A stretch of DNA of 51,610 bases from a virus: positions 1 to 51,610 of IMG/VR virus record IMGVR_UViG_3300049617_000177; one strand, 5' to 3'. Under the pieces are notes generated by a model. It was given only the letters and a program-made list of their open reading frames with translations, was not told where the DNA came from and did no database searches. The position numbers and the translations under genes are program-made. Of this stretch, positions 1,434 through 19,958 are shown piece after piece (position 1 is the first letter of the stretch; each line of letters starts with the position of its first letter).

Positions 1434-1994
1434 TCAGGCCTCCGTAAAGCATTTTTGCGAAAGAATTTTTTCATCATCAATCGGACTGCTCTGAATATTA
1501 TTAAAATCTTCACTATTTGTCGGTGGCGAAGTCTCATAACCAAGATTTCCAATATGGGTGTGATTCGCTATAGCAGCAAGTAAAGTGTCCATCATAGTTT
1601 TGAACACCTGTCCAAGCACCATATTTTCGGCAGAGTTTGCGCTTCCGAATTGCATTTTCCCCTCGGACAAATAAATTTGGTGTCCATATTGATCATACAT
1701 TATGACTTCGCCCTGATTCAAACTAGGCCTATTTACGTCTCTGTGTCCCAATATTATTCTATTTGCGGAATGATCACCCACTCGAGCTGTTACTTGGAAA
1801 GTTCCATTCGGCGCGCGAGACACAAATCCATAAGGATGCACAACGGGTCTTGCAGAAATCGTTGGCATCCCAGGATACATGTTAGCTATGTCCTCAGAAA
1901 ATTGAGTATTGCTTCCTGACTGACCAGATAAAATAACATTTATCTGCTTTCTGATTTCACTTTTAATAAATTCTCTTACTTCAGCGTCCATCAT
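1434..1994 (-). CDS. Baseplate spike protein, Mu gp45 / gpV type
   Basis: 186 residues from ATG 1994-1992, which overlaps the hub gene stop as ATGA; a second ATG follows immediately. An OB-fold-like N-terminal part (ISARPVVHPYGFVSRAPNG, FQVTARVGDHSANRIILGHR) is followed by the beta-helix region GEVIMYDQYGHQIYLSEGK typical of gpV/gp45 spikes. These trimers form the membrane-piercing tip of contractile tails. The C-terminal ANHTHIGNLG is a short His-rich stretch, and some spikes bind iron with an HxH motif. A reading frame extends upstream to 2033 but would overlap the hub gene needlessly. Confidence 0.85.
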   Translation of the reverse strand: MMDAEVREFIKSEIRKQINVILSGQSGSNTQFSEDIANMYPGMPTISARPVVHPYGFVSRAPNGTFQVTARVGDHSANRIILGHRDVNRPSLNQGEVIMYDQYGHQIYLSEGKMQFGSANSAENMVLGQVFKTMMDTLLAAIANHTHIGNLGYETSPPTNSEDFNNIQSSPIDDEKILSQKCFTEA

Positions 1995-3241
1995 TGAGCC
2001 TGTATGTCGGCGACAATTGTCCCGAGCCTGCAAAAATCAAGTGTTGTAGTTTGTCCCTTTTCTGGATCCATTGCATATTCTACCTGATAGAGATACATTT
2101 TTTCTTGCACACCTGCTTTGTCGTAAACGACGTTGTAACAGGTATCTATTAAGTAAGGTTGTCCATTTTCGTTGTAATGTCCTGGCACTATTGCTTGAAC
2201 AAGAAGTTCTTTCATATTGCCACGAGCACACAATCTTTTTGCATAAGCTTGAAGAATTGTTCCGTTGGCCGCATTTTGAGCCGCTGTTACATATTGATTT
2301 GCCTGATTGGCATTTTCAGACGGAGACCCCGCAGAAGGATTTGATGTGACAGCAGATTTCGTTAAAACAAATCCAAGCTTTCTCAATCTTGTTGGGCCAA
2401 CAGCACCATTGTAAAGATAATTGCTCGGAGATACTGCTTGGGAACCCTCTTGAGAGGACCACATTGGAACATAAATATTAGGAATTTGTGTCGATGCATA
2501 CGTCGCTCTAATCGATGTCACATTCGAAACTCTTGCATCTTTATTTAAAATTATATTTCCAATAGCATCTTGAGCCATGTTTGGCTTTCCAAAAACTAAT
2601 TGTCCAAGAGGATTCATCCACGCAATGCAATTGAGTGGGTCCATCCACCTTGTTAAGGCCGAAAGCTTTGACTCCCCTGGCTCTGTTGCCAAATCATATC
2701 CAAGAGATGGGGCTTGCTGCAAAACGTATCCTTGAATGCGAGTATTTTGAATTAAAAATTTAATAACAGCGCTTGCGGTTAATTTTGAATAATAAATTGG
2801 TTGCGATGTAATCGAAAGAACATCCTGGTCCTCAAGCTGAGCCATTAAATTTCTGCCAGAAATAGTTATTTTTTCCCCGGCATTCATATCAAATTCAACT
2901 TCAATTTGATCAATAAGCCCTGTACTTATTGTTGTTCCATTGGCATCTAAAATCGCAATGTCACCCTCATTGACATAATTTTTAATCGGTGTCGGGTCAT
3001 CAGGTGCCACCATAGTAAAAGAAAAAGAATCAACAGGAATTAAAATAGAGGATTGAAATCTATAGGAAAGAAAATTACCAAAACTTAAAACATTCTGACC
3101 TGTTAAATTTAAAGATCCCTTACCTTGTGGAGTTTTAGTTTGATCCTGCAAGGCATTGATAAACAGAGACACAGTCGGAAGCTGTCCGTTTTGAGCTAAG
3201 AACTTTACTAATCCATTTTGAGGAGGTGTTGTGTCGCTCAT
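1991..3241 (-). CDS. Baseplate hub protein, Mu gp44 / T4 gp27 type
   Basis: 416 residues. The N-terminal region SYRFQSSILIPVDSFSFTMV and the segment ISTGLIDQIEVEFDMNAGEK are the characteristic first beta-barrel layout of gp44-type hubs, in which a 'displacement/effect' domain is followed by GRNLMAQLEDQDV. The hub joins the tail tube to the spike and is essential for DNA passage. It overlaps the gp43-like gene (ATGA at 3238-3241) and the spike gene on its other side. The order 43-44-45 matches Mu, which adds strongly to the assignment. Confidence 0.85.
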   Translation of the reverse strand: MSDTTPPQNGLVKFLAQNGQLPTVSLFINALQDQTKTPQGKGSLNLTGQNVLSFGNFLSYRFQSSILIPVDSFSFTMVAPDDPTPIKNYVNEGDIAILDANGTTISTGLIDQIEVEFDMNAGEKITISGRNLMAQLEDQDVLSITSQPIYYSKLTASAVIKFLIQNTRIQGYVLQQAPSLGYDLATEPGESKLSALTRWMDPLNCIAWMNPLGQLVFGKPNMAQDAIGNIILNKDARVSNVTSIRATYASTQIPNIYVPMWSSQEGSQAVSPSNYLYNGAVGPTRLRKLGFVLTKSAVTSNPSAGSPSENANQANQYVTAAQNAANGTILQAYAKRLCARGNMKELLVQAIVPGHYNENGQPYLIDTCYNVVYDKAGVQEKMYLYQVEYAMDPEKGQTTTLDFCRLGTIVADIQAQ

Positions 3242-4500
3242 CCTGTTGTCGGCACCTGTATGGTTGTACCCTTGGCAATATAATTCACCGAAAGGAGTTG
3301 TTGTTGATTAAGTTGTTCGATGTCAATGACGGCGTCAAGTGAAAGGCCGTTTGCAAAAGCTACTTCACGAATGCTCATTAATCTTGGCGTGACGTAATTT
3401 ACAATCGTAGACTGTGAGCTTTGAATTCCAAGCTCAAGCGCTGATTGCATGGCATTCATCGATTGCTTAATTGCTAGAATTTGATCATAAAAATACAAGG
3501 CCCCATCATTAGGATAAGTGATTGTTTGCGATTCAAGGTTTTGAATTAACGCATTAGCCTGATCACGAAGTGCGTTTACATTATTAATGGCCTGCTGAGT
3601 GCTAACTGGAGTTGCTGAATCTTGCGAACTGTTTATAGGCGCATTTTGAAAAGGATCACTTGGACTGACTAGTGTATTAAAAGTTGTACTTGTGGTTGCG
3701 GTCCCTCCCAAATTTACAGGCAATAAACTTGGGATATCAGACGATGTTGAGTTATTGAAAGCCTGATTAATTTGCTGAAGCAAAAGAGTAAATCCAGCTT
3801 GGAACTGATTCACATAGCTTGTGAGCTCTTGTTTAAGTGAAGTTGCAAAAGCTTCCGCATTGCTGATGTATGTAGCAACAGCTTGAATCTTTGCAATAAA
3901 GGTTAAAGCGCCGGCAAGAGCTGATTTTACAGTTGACTGATTTTGCGGAAATTGCTGAGAAAAATTCCCAAGCGAAAAATTGTGTTCGATCATTGTGAGC
4001 CTGATCAAAACAGCGCTTCGATTCTCCGCCATGTGGGAAAGCTCGTAATCCTCCATCACACACTGGATATCTCCACGCACAGGATGTCTCAGCGTGCCAG
4101 GATAAGGCTGATTCAATTCATTGAGCAAATTATTTAAACCAATTTTATAATTGGTCCCAAATATCATTATTTCTAATTGGAAAGTCTGAGGCTTTCTACC
4201 GGTGTCATCTGTTGTTTGTCCGTCTTGATATGGAAAAACATATTTTATTTTTCTACGCCCACCGGAATCAGAAATTTTTGGAAGACCTGCCTGGTAAGGG
4301 GAGTTCGATTTAAAAATATGGAACAACACGGGGGGTTTGTTTTTAGTAGTTGGATTTGTTGACTTGTAAGAACCCTCAACGATGTCCCAGTTACTGGGGT
4401 TCTGTCCTGTCAATGTACCAAGCTGAGCTGCTACAGTGGCAGCATTTCCTGCTGTAGCTTGAGCAAATCCTAGTTGGGTATTTAAGTCAAAATTTCCCAT
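3238..4500 (-). CDS. DNA circularisation-type tail protein (Mu gp43), with LysM-like C-terminus
   Basis: 420 residues. The N-terminal region has the DNA-circularisation protein N pattern: PVLFHIFKSNSPY, GGRRKIKYVFPYQDGQTTDD, FQLEIMIFGTNY and TLRHPVRGDIQCVMEDYEL. The middle is helical and Gln/Ser-rich. The last 45 residues (SIREVAFANGL, DAVIDIEQLN, YIAKGTTIQVP) look like a single LysM-like module, which in other phages bridges tail hub and peptidoglycan or other hub subunits. It sits directly after the tape measure gene, as in Mu. The name comes from the family; a direct role in DNA circularisation here is unproven. Confidence 0.85.
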   Translation of the reverse strand: MGNFDLNTQLGFAQATAGNAATVAAQLGTLTGQNPSNWDIVEGSYKSTNPTTKNKPPVLFHIFKSNSPYQAGLPKISDSGGRRKIKYVFPYQDGQTTDDTGRKPQTFQLEIMIFGTNYKIGLNNLLNELNQPYPGTLRHPVRGDIQCVMEDYELSHMAENRSAVLIRLTMIEHNFSLGNFSQQFPQNQSTVKSALAGALTFIAKIQAVATYISNAEAFATSLKQELTSYVNQFQAGFTLLLQQINQAFNNSTSSDIPSLLPVNLGGTATTSTTFNTLVSPSDPFQNAPINSSQDSATPVSTQQAINNVNALRDQANALIQNLESQTITYPNDGALYFYDQILAIKQSMNAMQSALELGIQSSQSTIVNYVTPRLMSIREVAFANGLSLDAVIDIEQLNQQQLLSVNYIAKGTTIQVPTTG

Positions 4501-14069: not shown

Positions 14070-14090
14070 AGATAATATTAGATATTATCT
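14070..14090. promoter_or_regulatory. AT-rich perfect dyad before the protease/scaffold gene
   Basis: AGATAATAT and ATATTATCT are perfect 9-base inverted arms around TAG. The dyad contains the TAA stop of the gpF-like gene and lies 37 bases before the protease/scaffold start. There is no T-run, so an operator or RNA hairpin is more likely than a terminator. Similar dyads occur at 27152 and 40762. Confidence 0.5.
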
Positions 14091-15542
14091 GGAAGACCAA
14101 TTGACAGGCAGAGGCTCGGGCTTTCTGTTTGCACGCTGAATGCTTGCTTTATGAATCAGCTTTGCATGTTCAGGATTGAGAATTGAAAGTGGGACAATCT
14201 CGCTTCGACAGTTCCAATGACAATTATGTACTAAATATCCGCCAGCTATATAGGTATGATCTTTTTCGACTTCGAGATTAAAGACGATTTTTGAGGATTT
14301 ATACCATCCAATTTTCTGTGCAATATTATATGCTCTCTCTGATCCATCACTTGTAAATTTTCTGGACGATTGTCGTCTTTCGTTTGTTTGTTTGCTCGAG
14401 GATGTTCCTTTAGCATTATTCCCACATATCCATACTTCAATTTCTTTTTTCCACCGTTCCAAGAGGGATGATTTTCCCCATTTTGAATAGCCGCCAAAGA
14501 AATAGCATGACATTGACTTGAACAATACTTTCGGTCGCGCTTGCACCAAGGAACCCATCGCTGCTTTGAACACTTTATACAAGTTAAGAGTACTTGTCCG
14601 TAAACCCTCTTCTGCGATGAAATACTCTGCTTCAATAAATCCAAGGCTTCTGTCAAAGTAAGGGTGATTGGGGGTAGCCACTGCGCATCCAATTTGAAAT
14701 AAGTGCTTTGATTTCGAAATCGAACGGTATATTTTTTTAACTCTTTGCCATCTGTTTGCATGCGTCCACACATAATCAGCAGTTCCAATGCAATCAATTC
14801 TTTTCCAACCGTCTAAAGTAAGAATAAGAGATTCTCCTGTAAAACAAGGCGGCGTTTCCTTCTTTAAATATTCGGAACCCTTTTCATAAACGAGGCCAGT
14901 ACGAGTGGCGCACCATTTTGTTGTTCGATGATCACGGATGGCCAAAAATAAGTAATGCGTAATATCTGGATTGGAGTCATAGAAATCTCGTCTTGCCTTG
15001 TTATAATGTAAAGTCGTTTCAGTTCGCGCAGTGGTCTTTGCATCGGCGTATGTCTTTTTTAAATCCTTTTGGATACCTCTAATAATATCAGAATGGTCAA
15101 CCACTTCGCCGGCTAAAAAATCACGTGCATGCTTTTGCCACACGGTTTTTAATTTCTTAAAGTAATCGTCTTTCATTTTTTTGGCGATAACTCGCTGCCT
15201 ACGTGGAATGTCTCTTTTCCTTCGCCACTTTTTCCATTCGTTCATCAAATCGAAAATAGTTTTTGGATCACCTTTGGCCAATCGGTGAGCACTGTTGAAT
15301 GCCTTTTTTTTGACCATGTACATTTGCCAGACAAGCAAGAACTCAAAGTCAAATTGATTTTCATTAACTTTACCCATATTGAAAAGCTGCGTCAGCGAAT
15401 CCGCTGTCACTTTGTCGAGGAACTCTGTGAATCTTTTACACCAATAATTCTCAAGTTGGTCAGCTTCATCGGCTTGCCTTGCAATTTCTGTTAATTGTGA
15501 TTGTGGTAGCAGATGATTTAAGTTAGACAGGTTGCGAATCAT
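14085..15542 (-). CDS. Minor head protein, Mu gpF-like, interrupted by an intein
   Basis: 485 residues including a 208-residue intein (residues 233-440). The host protein is the phage head morphogenesis gpF family: TARTETTLHYNKARRDFYDS, YLFLAIRDHRTTKWCATRTG, YEKGSEYLKKETPP and, after the intein, CHWNCRSEIVPLSI, which completes the conserved 'P-C-H-x-x-C-R' motif. gpF proteins are minor capsid components next to the portal. The intein sits exactly in the most conserved motif and the +1 residue is Cys. The spliced protein would have 277 residues. The gene is separated from its usual partner, the portal gene, by a plus-strand island. Confidence 0.88.
   Translation of the reverse strand: MIRNLSNLNHLLPQSQLTEIARQADEADQLENYWCKRFTEFLDKVTADSLTQLFNMGKVNENQFDFEFLLVWQMYMVKKKAFNSAHRLAKGDPKTIFDLMNEWKKWRRKRDIPRRQRVIAKKMKDDYFKKLKTVWQKHARDFLAGEVVDHSDIIRGIQKDLKKTYADAKTTARTETTLHYNKARRDFYDSNPDITHYLFLAIRDHRTTKWCATRTGLVYEKGSEYLKKETPPCFTGESLILTLDGWKRIDCIGTADYVWTHANRWQRVKKIYRSISKSKHLFQIGCAVATPNHPYFDRSLGFIEAEYFIAEEGLRTSTLNLYKVFKAAMGSLVQARPKVLFKSMSCYFFGGYSKWGKSSLLERWKKEIEVWICGNNAKGTSSSKQTNERRQSSRKFTSDGSERAYNIAQKIGWYKSSKIVFNLEVEKDHTYIAGGYLVHNCHWNCRSEIVPLSILNPEHAKLIHKASIQRANRKPEPLPVNWSSR
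14223..14846 (-). mobile_element. Intein in the gpF-like protein
   Basis: 208 codons. The N-terminal splice block is CFTGESLILTLDGWKRI (Cys1), block B is CAVATPNHPYF (T-x-x-H), block F is VFNLEVEKDHTYIAGGYLV and the end is VHN followed by Cys+1. All residues needed for class 1 protein splicing are visible: Cys1, block B Thr and His, penultimate His, last Asn, Cys+1. The middle shows no endonuclease motif in this frame; an HNH-like sequence lies in the +1 frame (separate entry). It is therefore expected to splice but probably no longer to home. Confidence 0.9.
14312..14611 (-). pseudogene. Out-of-frame HNH homing endonuclease remnant inside the intein
   Basis: In the +1 frame relative to the intein, about 100 codons read as an HNH-type protein: a treble-clef-like CIKCSKQRWVPWCKRDRKYC followed by SSQC, then NGENHPSWNGGKKKLKYGYV, KEHPRANK and DDNRPENLQVMDQREHIILH. 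Members normally have a stretch with the catalytic His pair between HPRAN and DNRPENL; here only KQTKD separates them, so the catalytic core is missing. The segment is open in both frames. I read it as a dead endonuclease whose frame was lost while the intein frame was kept. No own ribosome site is evident. Confidence 0.75.
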
Positions 15543-15556
15543 ATAAGGACGGTAAC

Positions 15557-16297
15557 ATGAAACACCTCGTACTTGGTAGCGGTAACTTAGGCACTGATTT
15601 ATTTGAGACCATCGTGAAAGCTGGCCATGAGGCTGTTATCTGGAAACACGGGGATAAATTCGATTGGCCAAATACGCCGCCGCGCGGACTTGACGCATTT
15701 ACTCACATTTGGTGTGCGGTCGGGTACGGCTCAGTGAATGAAGCTGCAGCTAAATTTCGCCATGCCGTTGATGTCCATGTCAACTTACCTGATTACATTG
15801 TTAGGCATGCTCCGCAAGCGCGTTTGATATTTTTCTCAACTGATTATATCGAATCTCCAGCCTCGTCGCTGTACGCTCTTACGAAATATTTTATGGAGCA
15901 TCGCCTTGCTTTTGAAATGAACTGGGGAGGGCGCAGAAATATAAACATCATTCGCCTAGGATCACTTTATGGAAAACACAGACAAGTTAAAAATCTTGCT
16001 TATCGTTTACAGCAAAATTTAGATGAGATTTTAAAACTTCCCTCAAACATGATCAGACCAACGCCAACAAAATGGGTAGCTGAGGTTTTAGTGGACAAGA
16101 TAAACGATATTCCGCCACTATTTCATTTATGTCCCAGTGATGATGTCTCGGTGGCGGACTTCGGAAAATTTTGCACTGGTAAAGAGGTTGAGGTTGGAAT
16201 GATTGACATCCAACGCCCTCGTGTTATTGAGCCTAAGTGTGCATACTTGAAAGATGCACCGACGTGGAAATCTTTATATGAAGAGTATGCGCTTTGA
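15557..16297 (+). CDS. RmlD-like NAD(P)-dependent sugar reductase/epimerase
   Basis: 246 residues, an extended short-chain dehydrogenase. The Rossmann start is LVLGSGNLG (residues 4-12), FSTDYIES (93-100) matches the RmlD 'STDYVF' block, and YALTK (106-110) supplies the catalytic Tyr and Lys. Family members reduce dTDP-4-keto-6-deoxy sugars or epimerise nucleotide sugars. It is shorter than RmlD (about 290). An RmlC-type epimerase lies on the other side of the portal gene. AAGGACGG precedes the ATG; only 14 bases separate it from the divergent gpF-like start, so its promoter must lie inside that gene or elsewhere. Confidence 0.75.
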   Translation: MKHLVLGSGNLGTDLFETIVKAGHEAVIWKHGDKFDWPNTPPRGLDAFTHIWCAVGYGSVNEAAAKFRHAVDVHVNLPDYIVRHAPQARLIFFSTDYIESPASSLYALTKYFMEHRLAFEMNWGGRRNINIIRLGSLYGKHRQVKNLAYRLQQNLDEILKLPSNMIRPTPTKWVAEVLVDKINDIPPLFHLCPSDDVSVADFGKFCTGKEVEVGMIDIQRPRVIEPKCAYLKDAPTWKSLYEEYAL

Positions 16298-16439
16298 ATG
16301 AACTGTTTTTGACCTTATTGCAGATGGTGGTGGCATGAAAGTCGAAAGGCAAAGCTAGACGGACAGGAAGTAAAAAGCCTGAAACCGGAGGATTAGCGTA
16401 TTCCCAGTTCGAATCTGGGGAGGTTAAAAACAGTTCATT
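16297..16439 (+). ncRNA. Candidate structured RNA with tRNA-like T arm and a 20-bp closing helix
   Basis: Bases 16297-16316 pair with 16420-16439 over 20 positions (18 Watson-Crick, 2 G-U). Inside the 3' arm, CCCAG TTCGAAT CTGGG (16403-16419) is a canonical tRNA T arm, directly followed by GAGGTTA, which pairs with TGACCTT at 16310-16316 exactly as a 7-bp acceptor stem would. Between them lie 86 bases instead of about 42; they contain a short TGC/GCA stem (16319-16335) and a nested hairpin (CGG, CAGG with CCTG, CCG) but no normal anticodon arm. It could be an unusual tRNA-like RNA, a processed phage RNA, or a tRNA fragment captured at an attachment site. Strand is taken from the tRNA-like polarity. 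Confidence 0.5.
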
Positions 16440-16717
16440 GAGAGTGCAGCGTGGAAAGCTGTGGATATAAAAAACTAGAAGATACTTACCTGAAAAGGCG
16501 GACTGAGTAGCGTGACCCGCAAACGGCACAACCACTAGAGACACGCAGGAGCGGCAACTCCTTACTGTAAAATAAGCGTTCCTCCGTAAAGAAGGCCGGC
16601 GTTAAATAAAAAAGTATAGCCAGAGTCGCGCCTGGCCATCTCTCTTTATTACAAATGGGGTATGTATTGAAAACGATAAACGGAGTGCCGCAGTTTAAAG
16701 AAAATGGGAGATAAACA
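16440..16717. other. Non-coding stretch after the structured RNA
   Basis: About 280 bases without a convincing gene. It has small hairpins (AGGAG CGGCAA CTCCT near 16547-16562; GCCAG AGTCGCGC CTGGC at 16618-16635). The latter has TTTTTT nearby only when read on the minus strand, so it may end antisense transcription. A 19-codon frame (16655-16714) ends just before the next gene, whose ribosome site is GGGAGAT. It may be the 3' part of a longer untranslated RNA. Confidence 0.4.
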
Positions 16718-17227
16718 ATGAGTTTAAAAATACAAATCAACAGTGCTAAGATTAAGACATTCAAGCCATGCAAGGATAGATTTGATAATTGGCTTGAGCA
16801 TTACGACGGTTTCAATGGAGATATTTTAGAGTTTTTAGCTCTGGATAAGATCACAAATAAAGACAAGATCTGGGTATCTGTCAGAGTCTTGCCTGGAGAG
16901 CAGCTTGAATACTTTGCGATAGATTCAGCATTTGCGGCGACGGGATATGCTGCTGCTTATGCTGCTGCTGCTACTACTTATGCTGCTGCTGCTGCTACTA
17001 CTTATGCTGATGCTGCTGCTGCTGCTGCTACTACTTATGCTGCTGCTGCTTATGCTGCTGATGCTGCTGCTTATGCTGCTGCTGATGCTGCTGCTTATGC
17101 TGCTGCTACTTATGCTGCTGCTGCTGCTGCTGCTACTGCTACTACTTATGCTGATGCTGCTGCTTATGCTGCTGCTGAAAGATCTCGCCAAGTGGACTGT
17201 TTGGACTATCTGATTAGGAATGCATGA
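16718..17227 (+). CDS. Phage protein with long alanine/tyrosine repeat
   Basis: 169 residues. The first 76 form a compact domain (FKPCKDRFDNWLEHYDGFNG, ILEFLALDKITNKDKIWVSV, RVLPGEQLEYFAIDSA). Then about 77 residues consist almost only of Ala with periodic Tyr, Asp and Thr, encoded by GCT runs, and the chain ends ERSRQVDCLDYLIRNA. This domain-plus-Ala-repeat layout occurs in many phages with repeat number varying between strains; function is unknown. The repeat should form a long helix with Tyr spaced every four to five residues. The next tiny gene overlaps its stop by ATGA. Confidence 0.7.
   Translation: MSLKIQINSAKIKTFKPCKDRFDNWLEHYDGFNGDILEFLALDKITNKDKIWVSVRVLPGEQLEYFAIDSAFAATGYAAAYAAAATTYAAAAATTYADAAAAAATTYAAAAYAADAAAYAAADAAAYAAATYAAAAAAATATTYADAAAYAAAERSRQVDCLDYLIRNA
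16946..17176 (+). repeat. GCT microsatellite coding for Ala repeats
   Basis: 231 bases built from TAT (GCT)n with interspersed ACT and GAT codons. All units keep the reading frame. Unit lengths are irregular, as expected from slipped-strand expansion and contraction. Assemblies of such repeats are often collapsed, so the length should be treated as approximate. Confidence 0.9.
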
Positions 17228-17310
17228 TGGAAGGCATTCAAGGCGTAATCTTAGTTATATGTATGGGGCTATTTGTGAATGCTGTCTGTAGATGGATGGA
17301 TAGAGTATGA
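17224..17310 (+). CDS. Tiny single-span membrane peptide
   Basis: 28 codons starting at ATG 17224, overlapping the previous stop as ATGA. The peptide reads MMEGIQGVILVICMGLFVNA followed by VCRWMDRV: one hydrophobic span with a basic C-terminal end. No family is recognisable. The overlap favours a real, translationally coupled gene. It resembles the 21-residue peptide at 40993-41058 (G-L-x-V-x-x-x-C). Confidence 0.45.
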   Translation: MMEGIQGVILVICMGLFVNAVCRWMDRV

Positions 17311-17341
17311 CTTCTGACCCTAAAGAAAGCCCGAGAGAGTT

Positions 17342-18043
17342 ATGAAGTACGGATGGGAAATTGCAGATGAGGTTCAGCGATTTGTTGGAAACTCGGCGGA
17401 TGTTAAATTTGTTGAAGCTGAGGCCTACGAAGCCGTCAAAGCGGAGTGCGCGATTCTCAGAGAGGCCAATGACAATTGTATTTCAAGAGGGCTTCATGAA
17501 AGCCGAATGCAGGCCATTGAGGAAGAAAACGCCGCCCTCAAATCAGACTACGGCACTTGTGATGCTGAACGAGACACACTCAAAGCTGAAGTGGAGAGAT
17601 TGAAATCTAAATGGGAGCAAGAACAAGATTTGCTTGGTGAATGCTTATTCAACCATGCACAAAAATTGACTAAATGTCAGGAACTCCGCGAACAAGTTGA
17701 ATTTGAGCAATCCGTCGTGCGCGAACGAGAGTCGATGAATGCGCTGCACTTGCGAAAATTGAAGCAGCTTGAGGATGAGACGGATAAGCTCCGCGCTGAA
17801 GTGGAGCGGTTGAAGACGTGTGATGAAACCCTCGCTGTCATTCTTGCAAAATTAAATAAGCGCACGCAAAGAAACGCAGAACTCCGCGAGCACGGCAAGG
17901 CTTTGTATGATGCGCTGAAATCGGAGTGCTGTTGCACTGGAGAAACAGAGTGCGTTGGCGGTATAATTAAGCCTATTTTATGCGATGCTTGCGAAGCCCT
18001 CGCGCTTCACGGGAAGTTTTTTGTGGAAGGTGGTGGGGAGTGA
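17342..18043 (+). CDS. Coiled-coil protein with Cys-rich C-terminus
   Basis: 233 residues, not recognised. Residues about 25-190 are heptad-rich coiled coil (EEENAALKSDYGTCDAERDT, LKAEVERLK twice, ELREQVEFEQSVVRERES). Near the C-terminus CCCTGETECVGGIIKPILC followed by DAC gives five to six Cys that could bind zinc. KAEVERLK and RAEVERLK, about 75 residues apart, suggest an internal duplication. It overlaps the methyltransferase start. Such proteins are common in phage accessory regions; no activity can be inferred. Confidence 0.7.
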   Translation: MKYGWEIADEVQRFVGNSADVKFVEAEAYEAVKAECAILREANDNCISRGLHESRMQAIEEENAALKSDYGTCDAERDTLKAEVERLKSKWEQEQDLLGECLFNHAQKLTKCQELREQVEFEQSVVRERESMNALHLRKLKQLEDETDKLRAEVERLKTCDETLAVILAKLNKRTQRNAELREHGKALYDALKSECCCTGETECVGGIIKPILCDACEALALHGKFFVEGGGE

Positions 18044-18486
18044 GCTTTGAAACTGGGAATAAGGATGGAAAGCATTATTGGCTTACGCCGCCTGAGCTTA
18101 TGGAGGCTCTACAGCTTGAATTCAAGTTTGATTTCGATCCATGTCCATATCCTCAGCCTATTGGATTTGATGGCTTAACAACCGATTGGGGCCAATCGAA
18201 TTGGGTAAACCCTCCATTTGGATCCATCATGCATGAAGGAAAGAAGAAGGGTCCTACTGCATGGGCCAGAAAAGCGATTGCAGAGGCCAACAAGGGTAAG
18301 GATGTAGTTTTTGTCTATCCTATTGATAAATGGGTTTTAATGCTTATTGAAAGGGCCAGTGAAGTGAGAAACTTAAAAGATGTAAAATGGTGCGCGACTG
18401 AAGATGGATCCAGCGGTCCAGGCATAGGCCGACATGTTGGGATGTTCGTTTTGCGTGGCCATCGTGAAGGGACTGCCTCGAAATGA
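18040..18486 (+). CDS. Phage DNA N6-adenine methyltransferase (Dam type)
   Basis: 148 residues from GTG 18040, overlapping the previous stop as GTGA, with GGAAGGTGG upstream; a longer frame from 17980 would add residues shadowing the upstream gene. Motifs of the phage DNA N-6-adenine-methyltransferase family: YWLTPPELMEALQLEF, FDFDPCPYP (residues 31-38), WGQSNWVNPPFG with the catalytic NPPF (57-60), and GKDVVFVYPIDKW. It would methylate adenine in phage DNA, often protecting it from host restriction. No partner endonuclease is nearby. Confidence 0.85.
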   Translation: MSFETGNKDGKHYWLTPPELMEALQLEFKFDFDPCPYPQPIGFDGLTTDWGQSNWVNPPFGSIMHEGKKKGPTAWARKAIAEANKGKDVVFVYPIDKWVLMLIERASEVRNLKDVKWCATEDGSSGPGIGRHVGMFVLRGHREGTASK

Positions 18487-18578
18487 ATCAATATGTCTAT
18501 TACAATTATATAAGAGATGAGATTTGGATTGGCTTTGATTCGCAATGGGAAGGGCTTTTATTGCTTGGCAGACTTTAA
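18483..18578 (+). CDS. 31-residue small protein
   Basis: ATG 18483 overlaps the methyltransferase stop as ATGA and the frame ends at TAA 18576. The peptide is aromatic-rich (MNQYVYYNYIRDEIWIGFDS then QWEGLLLLGRL) and resembles no family I can name. The coupling overlap and the compact-fold-like composition support it being real, but it is short. Confidence 0.45.
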   Translation: MNQYVYYNYIRDEIWIGFDSQWEGLLLLGRL

Positions 18579-18614
18579 AATAATTCATTATTTACTTGAT
18601 TTTGTGCCACATAA

Positions 18615-18632
18615 TTGATATTCTTATATCAA
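18615..18632 (+). promoter_or_regulatory. Dyad upstream of the 53-residue gene
   Basis: TTGATAT and ATATCAA are perfect inverted arms around TCTT, ending two bases before the ribosome site AAGGCGG (18634-18640) of the gene starting at 18647. It could be a protein-binding operator or a 5' RNA hairpin. Confidence 0.45.
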
Positions 18633-18646
18633 CAAGGCGGTACAAG

Positions 18647-18808
18647 ATGGAATTCAGCAAAAAAGAAATTAAACTAATGATCAGCATTCTAAATGACGAG
18701 CGAAACAATCTCATGATGTCCACTCCTGAAACTAAAAAAGATTTAAAGGCAGTTCAAAAGGCGATCATTGCTATTGAATCATTGCTGGAAAAATTGGAGG
18801 CAAAATGA
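18647..18808 (+). CDS. 53-residue helical protein
   Basis: The start is ATG 18647 behind AAGGCGG; an upstream in-frame start at 18596 has no ribosome site and would include the dyad. The protein is charged and helical (MEFSKKEIKLMISILNDERN, KKDLKAVQKAIIAIESLLEK) and looks like a small two-helix hairpin. No family is recognised. It overlaps the next gene by ATGA, so it heads a coupled chain of small genes running to 20128. Confidence 0.65.
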   Translation: MEFSKKEIKLMISILNDERNNLMMSTPETKKDLKAVQKAIIAIESLLEKLEAK

Positions 18809-19269
18809 ACAAAAGAATACTGGGTTTTGTAAGATGGTACGATGAAAAAGGAGACGATGGTATTTTGCAAGATTTCGAGGGAAACGAATACTATTTCAAT
18901 TCGTGGTCGTTTCCAAAAACGAAGTATCGAGTTACTGGTACTTGTAAAATCACCGGGAAACAAAAGACAGTTATGACTAGATATTATCCTGGATTATTTT
19001 TGTCTTATACGATTGTCAAAGACAATATGTGTATGAAAATAGACCACGACACTCCTGTAGAGTTTGAACAGGCTAAGGGCATAGATCAACGCTGGGCTGT
19101 CTCTATAACTTTGAAACCAGAGCTTATTGAAGATGTTCTTAGTCACCATATTGAGTGTTCTTTGGACTATCAGGAGAGTTTACAGTTCGATCCTATGAGA
19201 GTGATGAGACTCGCGTATGTAGATAAATCTTTGGACAGGCTTATAGGAAAGGTTTGGGGTGACCAATGA
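18805..19269 (+). CDS. Protein with cold-shock-like N-terminus
   Basis: 154 residues. The first 35 residues, ILGFVRWYDEKGDDGILQDF and EGNEYYFNSWSF, resemble a cold-shock/OB start (G-x-V-x-W-x-x-x-K-G-x-G-x-I) without full RNP motifs. The remainder (VTGTCKITGKQKTVMTRYYP, DQRWAVSITLKPELIEDVL) is unassigned. A nucleic-acid-binding role is a weak inference. ATGA overlaps occur on both ends. Confidence 0.55.
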   Translation: MNKRILGFVRWYDEKGDDGILQDFEGNEYYFNSWSFPKTKYRVTGTCKITGKQKTVMTRYYPGLFLSYTIVKDNMCMKIDHDTPVEFEQAKGIDQRWAVSITLKPELIEDVLSHHIECSLDYQESLQFDPMRVMRLAYVDKSLDRLIGKVWGDQ

Positions 19270-19430
19270 AACAGTATGTAGCTATATACAAAACGACAGG
19301 GGAGTTGGTTTTAGTAAACTCAACGATTCTATGTTCTGAGGTTGAATTTCAAGTCGGCGATAAGGTATTTTTATATTTGATGGCCGAACTTGGCGGACAA
19401 TCGAACTTTGAAATAATCGGGGATTTCTAA
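19266..19430 (+). CDS. 54-residue beta-rich small protein
   Basis: ATG 19266 overlaps the previous stop as ATGA; the stop TAA 19428-19430 shares its last base with the next ATG. The protein reads MKQYVAIYKTTGELVLVNST and ends GGQSNFEIIGDF. A run of short beta strands with VEFQVGDKVFLYLMAEL in the middle suggests a small barrel-like fold. Not assigned to a family. Confidence 0.55.
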   Translation: MKQYVAIYKTTGELVLVNSTILCSEVEFQVGDKVFLYLMAELGGQSNFEIIGDF

Positions 19431-19612
19431 TGAAGCGCAAGGCAGGACGCCCAAGGCTGGGCAAGCAAAACAAAGTGCATGTTTCAATCAGGCTCGAACC
19501 AAAAGTTCGGGCTAAACTTATTGCTGATCACGGCTCAGTTCAAAAATGGATTGATTCTATGATTGGTAGTCTTTGTTGGACGGCCATTCCTGACAAAAAT
19601 GTGAAAGATTGA
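19430..19612 (+). CDS. Small DNA-binding-type protein (AT-hook-like start, ribbon-helix-helix-like)
   Basis: 60 residues. KRKAGRPRLGKQNK contains an AT-hook-like GRPR core in a basic stretch, followed by VHVSIRLEPKVRAKLIADHG and SVQKWIDSMI, a strand-helix-helix pattern as in ribbon-helix-helix repressors. It would bind DNA as a dimer. Its target is unknown; dyads at 18615 and elsewhere are candidates. Confidence 0.55.
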   Translation: MKRKAGRPRLGKQNKVHVSIRLEPKVRAKLIADHGSVQKWIDSMIGSLCWTAIPDKNVKD

Positions 19613-19623
19613 GGATTATTGGT

Positions 19624-19686
19624 ATGGGAAACGTGACGGCCGTTAATTGGAAGCATATTGAAGATCAAAGGACGGCCACCAAATGA
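19624..19686 (+). CDS. Possible 20-residue leader peptide
   Basis: ATG 19624 to TGA 19684-19686, overlapping the next start as ATGA: MGNVTAVNWKHIEDQRTATK. The ribosome site is weak (GAGG about ten bases upstream). It may only serve to couple translation of the next gene. Low confidence. Confidence 0.3.
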   Translation: MGNVTAVNWKHIEDQRTATK

Positions 19687-19958
19687 ACTGTCCATACTGC
19701 CACAGGGTTTTAACTAAAGACGTGCTCGCGAACAAGAAGAGAATAGCTAAAAAGAATAAGCAAGACGGGCTCAGGTTAGCCCAGGCTAATGGTAAGCATA
19801 TCGGAAGGCCGCGCAAGGCCCAGCCAAAGGCGGTCTTAATGTGGCGAAGCCTCGGACGCTCTTATGCTGAAATAGCCAAAGAGTTGGGATGTTCTACAGG
19901 TGCCGTTCGATACGCAATTGGCAATCCTCTAGAAGCAGCAAATGAGGATGAGAAGTGA
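19683..19958 (+). CDS. Orphan recombinase-type helix-turn-helix protein with N-terminal CPYC
   Basis: 91 residues. It begins MNCPYCHRVL, a possible half zinc knuckle, then a basic helix, then ANGKHIGRPRKAQPKAVLMW and SYAEIAKELGCSTGAVRYAI, which is the C-terminal DNA-binding tail of serine recombinases (GRP motif plus helix-turn-helix). The catalytic domain is absent, so this is a stand-alone binding protein, probably a regulator. The next gene starts at GTG 19955 inside its stop. Confidence 0.6.
   Translation: MNCPYCHRVLTKDVLANKKRIAKKNKQDGLRLAQANGKHIGRPRKAQPKAVLMWRSLGRSYAEIAKELGCSTGAVRYAIGNPLEAANEDEK

Follow-up and report, generated by a model that had tools for sequence, protein, structure and literature searches.

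Inteins classically consist of a splicing domain fused to an in-frame endonuclease. In the fractured genes reportedly described by Dassa et al. in 2009, split inteins are said to have a free-standing endonuclease gene between their halves. Hidden HNH endonucleases read out of frame have been described in phage methylases, namely in the ShiLan domain and in Pacc40 gp60, which, as the authors emphasize, belong neither to the inteins nor to the introns (Arsenault, Gosselin and Gogarten 2025, PMC11855218). No splicing domain can be detected in the ShiLan domain, which is believed to remain part of the protein (PMC11855218). A search of a library of open-access articles yielded no description of a true intein whose endonuclease is read out of frame.

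Here, a head gene on a stretch of viral DNA of 51,610 nt (IMGVR_UViG_3300049617_000177, hereafter the window) was analyzed together with its relatives. According to the most probable reading, to which we assign a probability of about 0.8, the gene carries a dual-coded mobile intein, in which frame 0 would encode splicing and the +1 frame a homing endonuclease, and the window copy would have decayed by an in-frame deletion. It is also rather likely, with somewhat less confidence, that this is the first intein with a homing endonuclease encoded entirely in an overlapping frame. Splicing and cutting would then be carried out by separate proteins from the same bases, and the overlap with the head gene would entrench the endonuclease, which could be removed only by in-frame deletions.

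A MuF head gene interrupted by an intein

The minus strand of the window at 14085-15542 contains a 485-aa ORF (frame 0) for the intein-interrupted precursor of a MuF-like head morphogenesis (minor head) protein. The ORF matches the profiles phrog_241 (head morphogenesis, 1e-10) and phrog_115 (minor head protein, 1e-7), and the gene is syntenic with the head genes of two relatives. With the intein removed in silico, the spliced MuF extein matches 793 phage records, and the alignment is unbroken over the junction PPC/HWNCRS in all three of these records that were checked. Among the uninserted homologues, the Jerseyvirus, Mallos and DSS3_VP1 proteins align without gaps to the spliced protein over PP/CHWNCRS. 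The insert thus keeps the reading frame and interrupts a conserved motif that is continuous in homologues without it, as in class 1 Hint inteins.

The intein itself (14223-14846, minus strand) has 208 aa, C1FTGESL...GGYLVHN/C, and is inserted at TPP/CHWNCRS of the MuF domain. The motifs of a class 1 Hint intein are present, i.e. C1, ATPNHPY, VFNLEVEKDHTY and GGYLVHN/C, and blocks A, B (ATPNHPY), F and G can be aligned with those of phage methylase inteins. The block A region with the catalytic Cys1, CFTGESLILTLDGWK, was placed at 14802-14846 (minus strand) by alignment with known phage inteins. Block B, ATPNHPYF with the T..H motif, lies at 14655-14678 (minus strand); its +1 reading is the HNH-frame segment WLPPITL, and the segment is conserved in both frames. 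Blocks F and G, VFNLEVEKDHTYIAGGYLVHN (followed by /C), occupy 14223-14285 (minus strand) according to the methylase-intein alignment and TIGR01443. The TIGR01443 intein_Cterm match passes the curated cut-off (20.7 bits vs 15.6), and the Pfam Intein_splicing match (2e-4) is under its cut-off. Judging from these motifs, frame 0 encodes a MuF precursor whose intein looks splicing-competent, and self-removal of the intein would yield a normal MuF protein.

Beside the MuF gene, a plus-strand block with opposite GC skew (15557-19958) interrupts the minus-strand late genes, and its first gene resembles an RmlD-type sugar reductase. Within the window, a 169-aa plus-strand ORF at 16718-17227 is open in several frames and consists largely of Ala/Thr/Tyr repeats, the source of which is a (TGC)n-like 36-bp tandem array at 16948-17177.

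The overlapping HNH frame in the window and in its relatives

The initial annotation, made from the letters of the window only, placed an HNH endonuclease in a different frame inside the intein, at 14312-14611, and this observation holds, except that the HNH frame is longer than proposed. The +1 frame is open from 14246 to 14797 on the minus strand, both frames being open over the shared bases, and from a conserved ATG it encodes a catalytically deleted HNH endonuclease of 171 aa (14246-14761, minus strand). The blocks cited by the annotation are present, i.e. the Cys module LLTCIKCSKQRWVPWCKRDRKYCSSQC, NGENHPSWNGGKK, KEHPRANK and DDNRPENLQVMDQREH, as well as NGENHPSWNGG and DDNRPENLQVM. The +1 protein matches PHROG 20891 'HNH endonuclease' with E=1e-9, and the HNH signal in the window is far above chance. 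The Zn-finger Cys module (C..C...C...C...C; 14510-14581, minus strand) is intact, and its five Cys are invariant in all three sequences compared. AlphaFold models of the two frames (pLDDT 35 and 40) were unusable.

The stretch with the catalytic His pair is absent from the window, as had been noticed. Compared with intact homologues, a net 29 codons are gone between HPRANK and DDNRPENL, including the conserved EH...VHHIN core, and the deletion junction, with CAAACAAACAAAC at the join, is located at 14384-14396 (minus strand; ~29 codons = 87 nt absent). The block DDNRPENLQVM, which holds the N of the HNH motif, follows past the deletion at 14345-14377 (minus strand). Only a remnant of Pfam HNH_3 is left in the window (E=0.14), and the intact HNH_3-type core is found in the relatives L002 (1.6e-12) and L021 (2.7e-11). 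Since the length of the deletion is a multiple of three, both frames survive it.

The relatives were obtained from IMG/VR, L002 (IMGVR_UViG_3300006052_000012) and L001 (IMGVR_UViG_3300027898_000047) by searching with the +1 protein and the MuF protein, and L021 (IMGVR_UViG_3300006059_000307) by the pattern of the intein/MuF junction. L001 and L002 are the same and were counted once, so that the comparison set contains three distinct sequences (window, L002 and L021), all of them metagenomic. The MuF intein is shared by both relatives, and in each of them its +1 frame, at the same offset and wholly inside the open intein frame, encodes a complete HNH (VHHIN...DNRPENLQVM) of 189 aa in L002 and 198 aa in L021; across the three lineages, the +1 frame is kept open over 171-198 codons. 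The HNH is at +1 from the splicing domain in all three sequences, and not in its frame as in a conventional intein. The window intein would belong to a small family of dual-coded inteins, as a member that has decayed. Searches of IMG/VR DNA with patterns for the MuF-intein C-junction, block B and the dual-coded YFK.D..W.PP returned the same contigs and chance matches only, and the C-junction pattern gave chance matches only in genome contigs. An HNH search in 398 genomes of one phylum found short HNH-domain matches only, and the HNH had no useful match in a sequence search of the PDB. Among the sequences collected, there was neither a closely related phage without the intein nor a homologue sharing the deletion of the window.

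Selection, translation and decay of the HNH frame

Over the same aligned bases, the protein identities of the three pairs are 64, 47 and 54% in the HNH frame, 43, 28 and 28% in the intein frame, and 37, 27 and 23% in the third frame. In the overlap, 82, 83 and 160 changes fall at HNH codon positions 1, 2 and 3, and in the single-coded ends, i.e. the first 28 and the last 23 intein codons, the changes at intein positions 1, 2 and 3 number 13, 11 and 32, and 12, 6 and 24, respectively. Variation at the intein ends is thus that of normal single-frame coding, and the third-position excess moves to the HNH frame in the overlap. This wobble swap is significant by Fisher's test (p=6e-8), which treats the changes of the three branches as independent and ignores phylogeny and is therefore indicative only. 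The swap can be seen just past the conserved ATG, with a wide two-log-unit support range for the change point (nt 106-246). By this pattern of substitutions, the HNH frame is under purifying selection.

After synonymous recoding of the HNH protein, the intein frame contained a mean of 13.2, 12.4 and 8.4 stops in the three sequences, and none of 4000 recodings of each was open; the real frames have no stop. The open intein frame is thus not luck, given 8-13 stops on average, and is itself under selection to stay open. Among the HNH relatives surveyed, a stop-free alternative frame was present only in the MuF inteins, the Bipolar/ShiLan methylase and one 31-codon remnant, the rest having stops in both other frames.

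The likeliest start of the HNH frame is the conserved ATG at 14759-14761 (minus strand), 85 nt into the intein (nt 86), which is the sole start codon common to all three sequences upstream of the +1-constrained stretch and after which the wobble swap occurs; the proteins begin with MQTDG, MSKDG and MQKDG. Conservation of this ATG alone is weak evidence, because it overlaps the intein's own conserved WTH motif. The Shine-Dalgarno duplex before it is weak (-3.0 to -3.2 kcal/mol vs -7 to -11 for many neighbouring genes), and in the window the codon lies within moderately strong local structure. The HNH is probably a translation product of its own, and weak internal initiation at this ATG is its likeliest route.

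The same dual-coded element might instead express its HNH by +1 ribosomal frameshifting, giving a fusion of the MuF N-extein, the N-terminal part of the intein and the HNH, as the initial annotation had allowed. The weak Shine-Dalgarno signals would fit such a route, a +1 shift would produce just this offset, and the selected frame changes ~20-150 nt past the ATG, which leaves room for a shift site. However, the conserved ATG stands at the switch point in all three sequences, neither a stop codon nor a classical slippery site is conserved there, and the fusion would cost head protein. Frameshifting is therefore possible but rather unlikely, and internal initiation fits better because the selected frame changes just past the conserved ATG.

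Between 5 and 7% of the substitutions tolerated by the intein frame would create a +1 stop, and none has occurred in the three lineages. On the window branch, ~4 such stops would be expected under neutrality and none is present (P about 0.016), so the loss of the HNH in the window looks recent, unless its truncated Zn-finger product is still used. In a relaxation test, changes at HNH positions 1, 2 and 3 were 20, 14 and 22 on the window branch vs 11, 18 and 28, and 27, 33 and 44 on the others, which does not separate recent loss from continued use. The truncated product could be made as a functional Zn-finger DNA-binding protein, e.g. a repressor or competitor, in line with the intact Cys module and the missing stops; a recent deletion accounts for the same facts, though, and the deletion is known from no homologue, and we regard continued use as improbable, slightly more so than frameshifting.

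Far less probable is that an HNH initially in frame lost its frame through compensating frameshifts and was then deleted, so that a fossil remained. It is true that the catalytic core is missing from the window HNH and that other inteins (L045 and L046) have their HNH in frame, but both relatives retain a complete +1 HNH under strong purifying selection, and a fossil would not hold 171-198 +1 codons open in three lineages. As the origin of the frame offset, such decay is already refuted by these comparisons. Thus, of the silencing proposed initially, by frame loss plus an internal deletion, the deletion with the intein preserved stands and the frame loss does not. The proposal to look for sister phages with an HNH at this site was fruitful, as L002/L001 and L021 have it complete, in the +1 frame and not in the intein frame as the proposal had it. 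No frameshift borders exist near 14611 and 14320; the frame offset is constant and common to all relatives. An assembly error or a pair of indels, which the annotation had itself considered, is ruled out, as the window, L002/L001 and L021 are divergent sequences from independent assemblies with the same offset. Least probable of all is a group I intron with an HNH ORF over an incidentally open frame 0, since, common as HNH genes are in phage group I introns, the window, L028 and L029 had no Rfam match at the gathering score, no stop occurs in frame 0 of the window, L002 or L021 vs 8-13 expected, and intein blocks A, B, F and G and HN/C are conserved.

The out-of-frame state is accordingly seen as the working ancestral arrangement of the dual-coded intein, because in two relatives the full-length HNH lies at this +1 offset beneath an intein frame without stops, and selection on the HNH frame is purifying. 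In the proposed mechanism, the middle of the intein, from the conserved ATG to a stop just before the C-terminal splicing block, would encode, in its +1 reading, a distinct Zn-finger HNH homing endonuclease, and the same bases in frame 0 would serve as an unconstrained stop-free linker joining the two halves of the splicing domain. Judging from its family, the HNH would cut intein-less MuF alleles, into which the whole element would then be copied. In the window, the in-frame deletion of ~29 codons took out the catalytic core and left both frames open, by which splicing would be retained and homing lost. Because the head protein is read through the same bases, only multiple-of-three deletions and substitutions that keep frame 0 open would be tolerated, and the selfish gene would thereby be shielded from frameshift decay.

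Comparison with inteins and hidden HNH elements

The splicing domain of the MuF intein has counterparts in the mini and full inteins of phage methylases (Propionibacterium B22, Pseudomonas Lana, Erwinia SNUABM_5, Yoloswag and Yersinia fHe-Yen9-02), whose blocks A and F/G give good alignments with frame 0; these inteins differ in having their long middle in frame, and no hidden HNH was found in the other frames of the methylase inteins most similar to frame 0. With the conventional in-frame-HNH inteins (L045, in a portal-like protein, and L046), the element shares the Hint splicing domain and the same broad HNH family. In those inteins, however, the HNH is within the intein polypeptide, whereas here it occupies a separate frame and the in-frame middle is featureless. 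ORFs of ~1050 aa with an in-frame HNH occur on many viral contigs (L045-L061, L068 and L069; e.g. L045 2371-5523). The one ORF examined in full, that of L045, encodes a portal-like protein interrupted by a conventional intein with its HNH in frame, and the group offers a natural control for the dual-coded form. As in fractured genes, an intein-associated endonuclease would be made as a separate protein, but the gene is said to be broken in two there, and here the endonuclease overlaps an unbroken host gene.

Out-of-frame HNHs were also observed in other phage genes. In Gordonia phage GAL1 (NC_031936.1), the CDS 1712-2599 'nucleotide kinase' has a +1 HNH ORF (1779-2276) in a stop-free insertion, and a short copy of the gene start (DPVN.P.HY) appears again after the insert, as in ShiLan elements; this is possibly an unreported hidden HNH in a non-methylase gene. 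In Mycobacterium phage HokkenD (MK967379.1), the DNA methylase CDS 1647-3170 overlaps an HNH frame at 2129-2761 with an offset of +2, and the methylase is divided between two annotated genes. A 65-aa out-of-frame HNH remnant, VHHINGVKTDNCPENLQVM, at 2971-3165 of L071, inside a methylase-like ORF (2151-4019), looks like a decayed hidden HNH.

If the dual-coded reading is correct, splicing and endonuclease have been uncoupled into overlapping frames, so that the endonuclease could be expressed, lost and selected independently and the host protein would still be repaired by splicing. Two questions then become testable: by what route hidden endonucleases are translated, and whether the homing-decay cycle runs more slowly where the endonuclease overlaps an essential gene. 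A warning also follows, as many 'mini-inteins' may conceal an endonuclease in another frame.

The closest parallel is the ShiLan domain. Both have an out-of-frame HNH in an in-frame, stop-free insertion of a conserved phage gene, and few HNHs are closer to the present one than the hidden HNHs of Mantra and ShiLan (38-41% identity). In contrast to ShiLan, defined by the lack of a splicing domain, the element has intein blocks A, B, F and G, resides in a head protein gene, has a +1 and not a +2 offset, and starts its HNH inside the coding sequence of the splicing domain. It would thus represent the missing combination between inteins and the hidden HNH elements, which are puzzling without a splicing domain.
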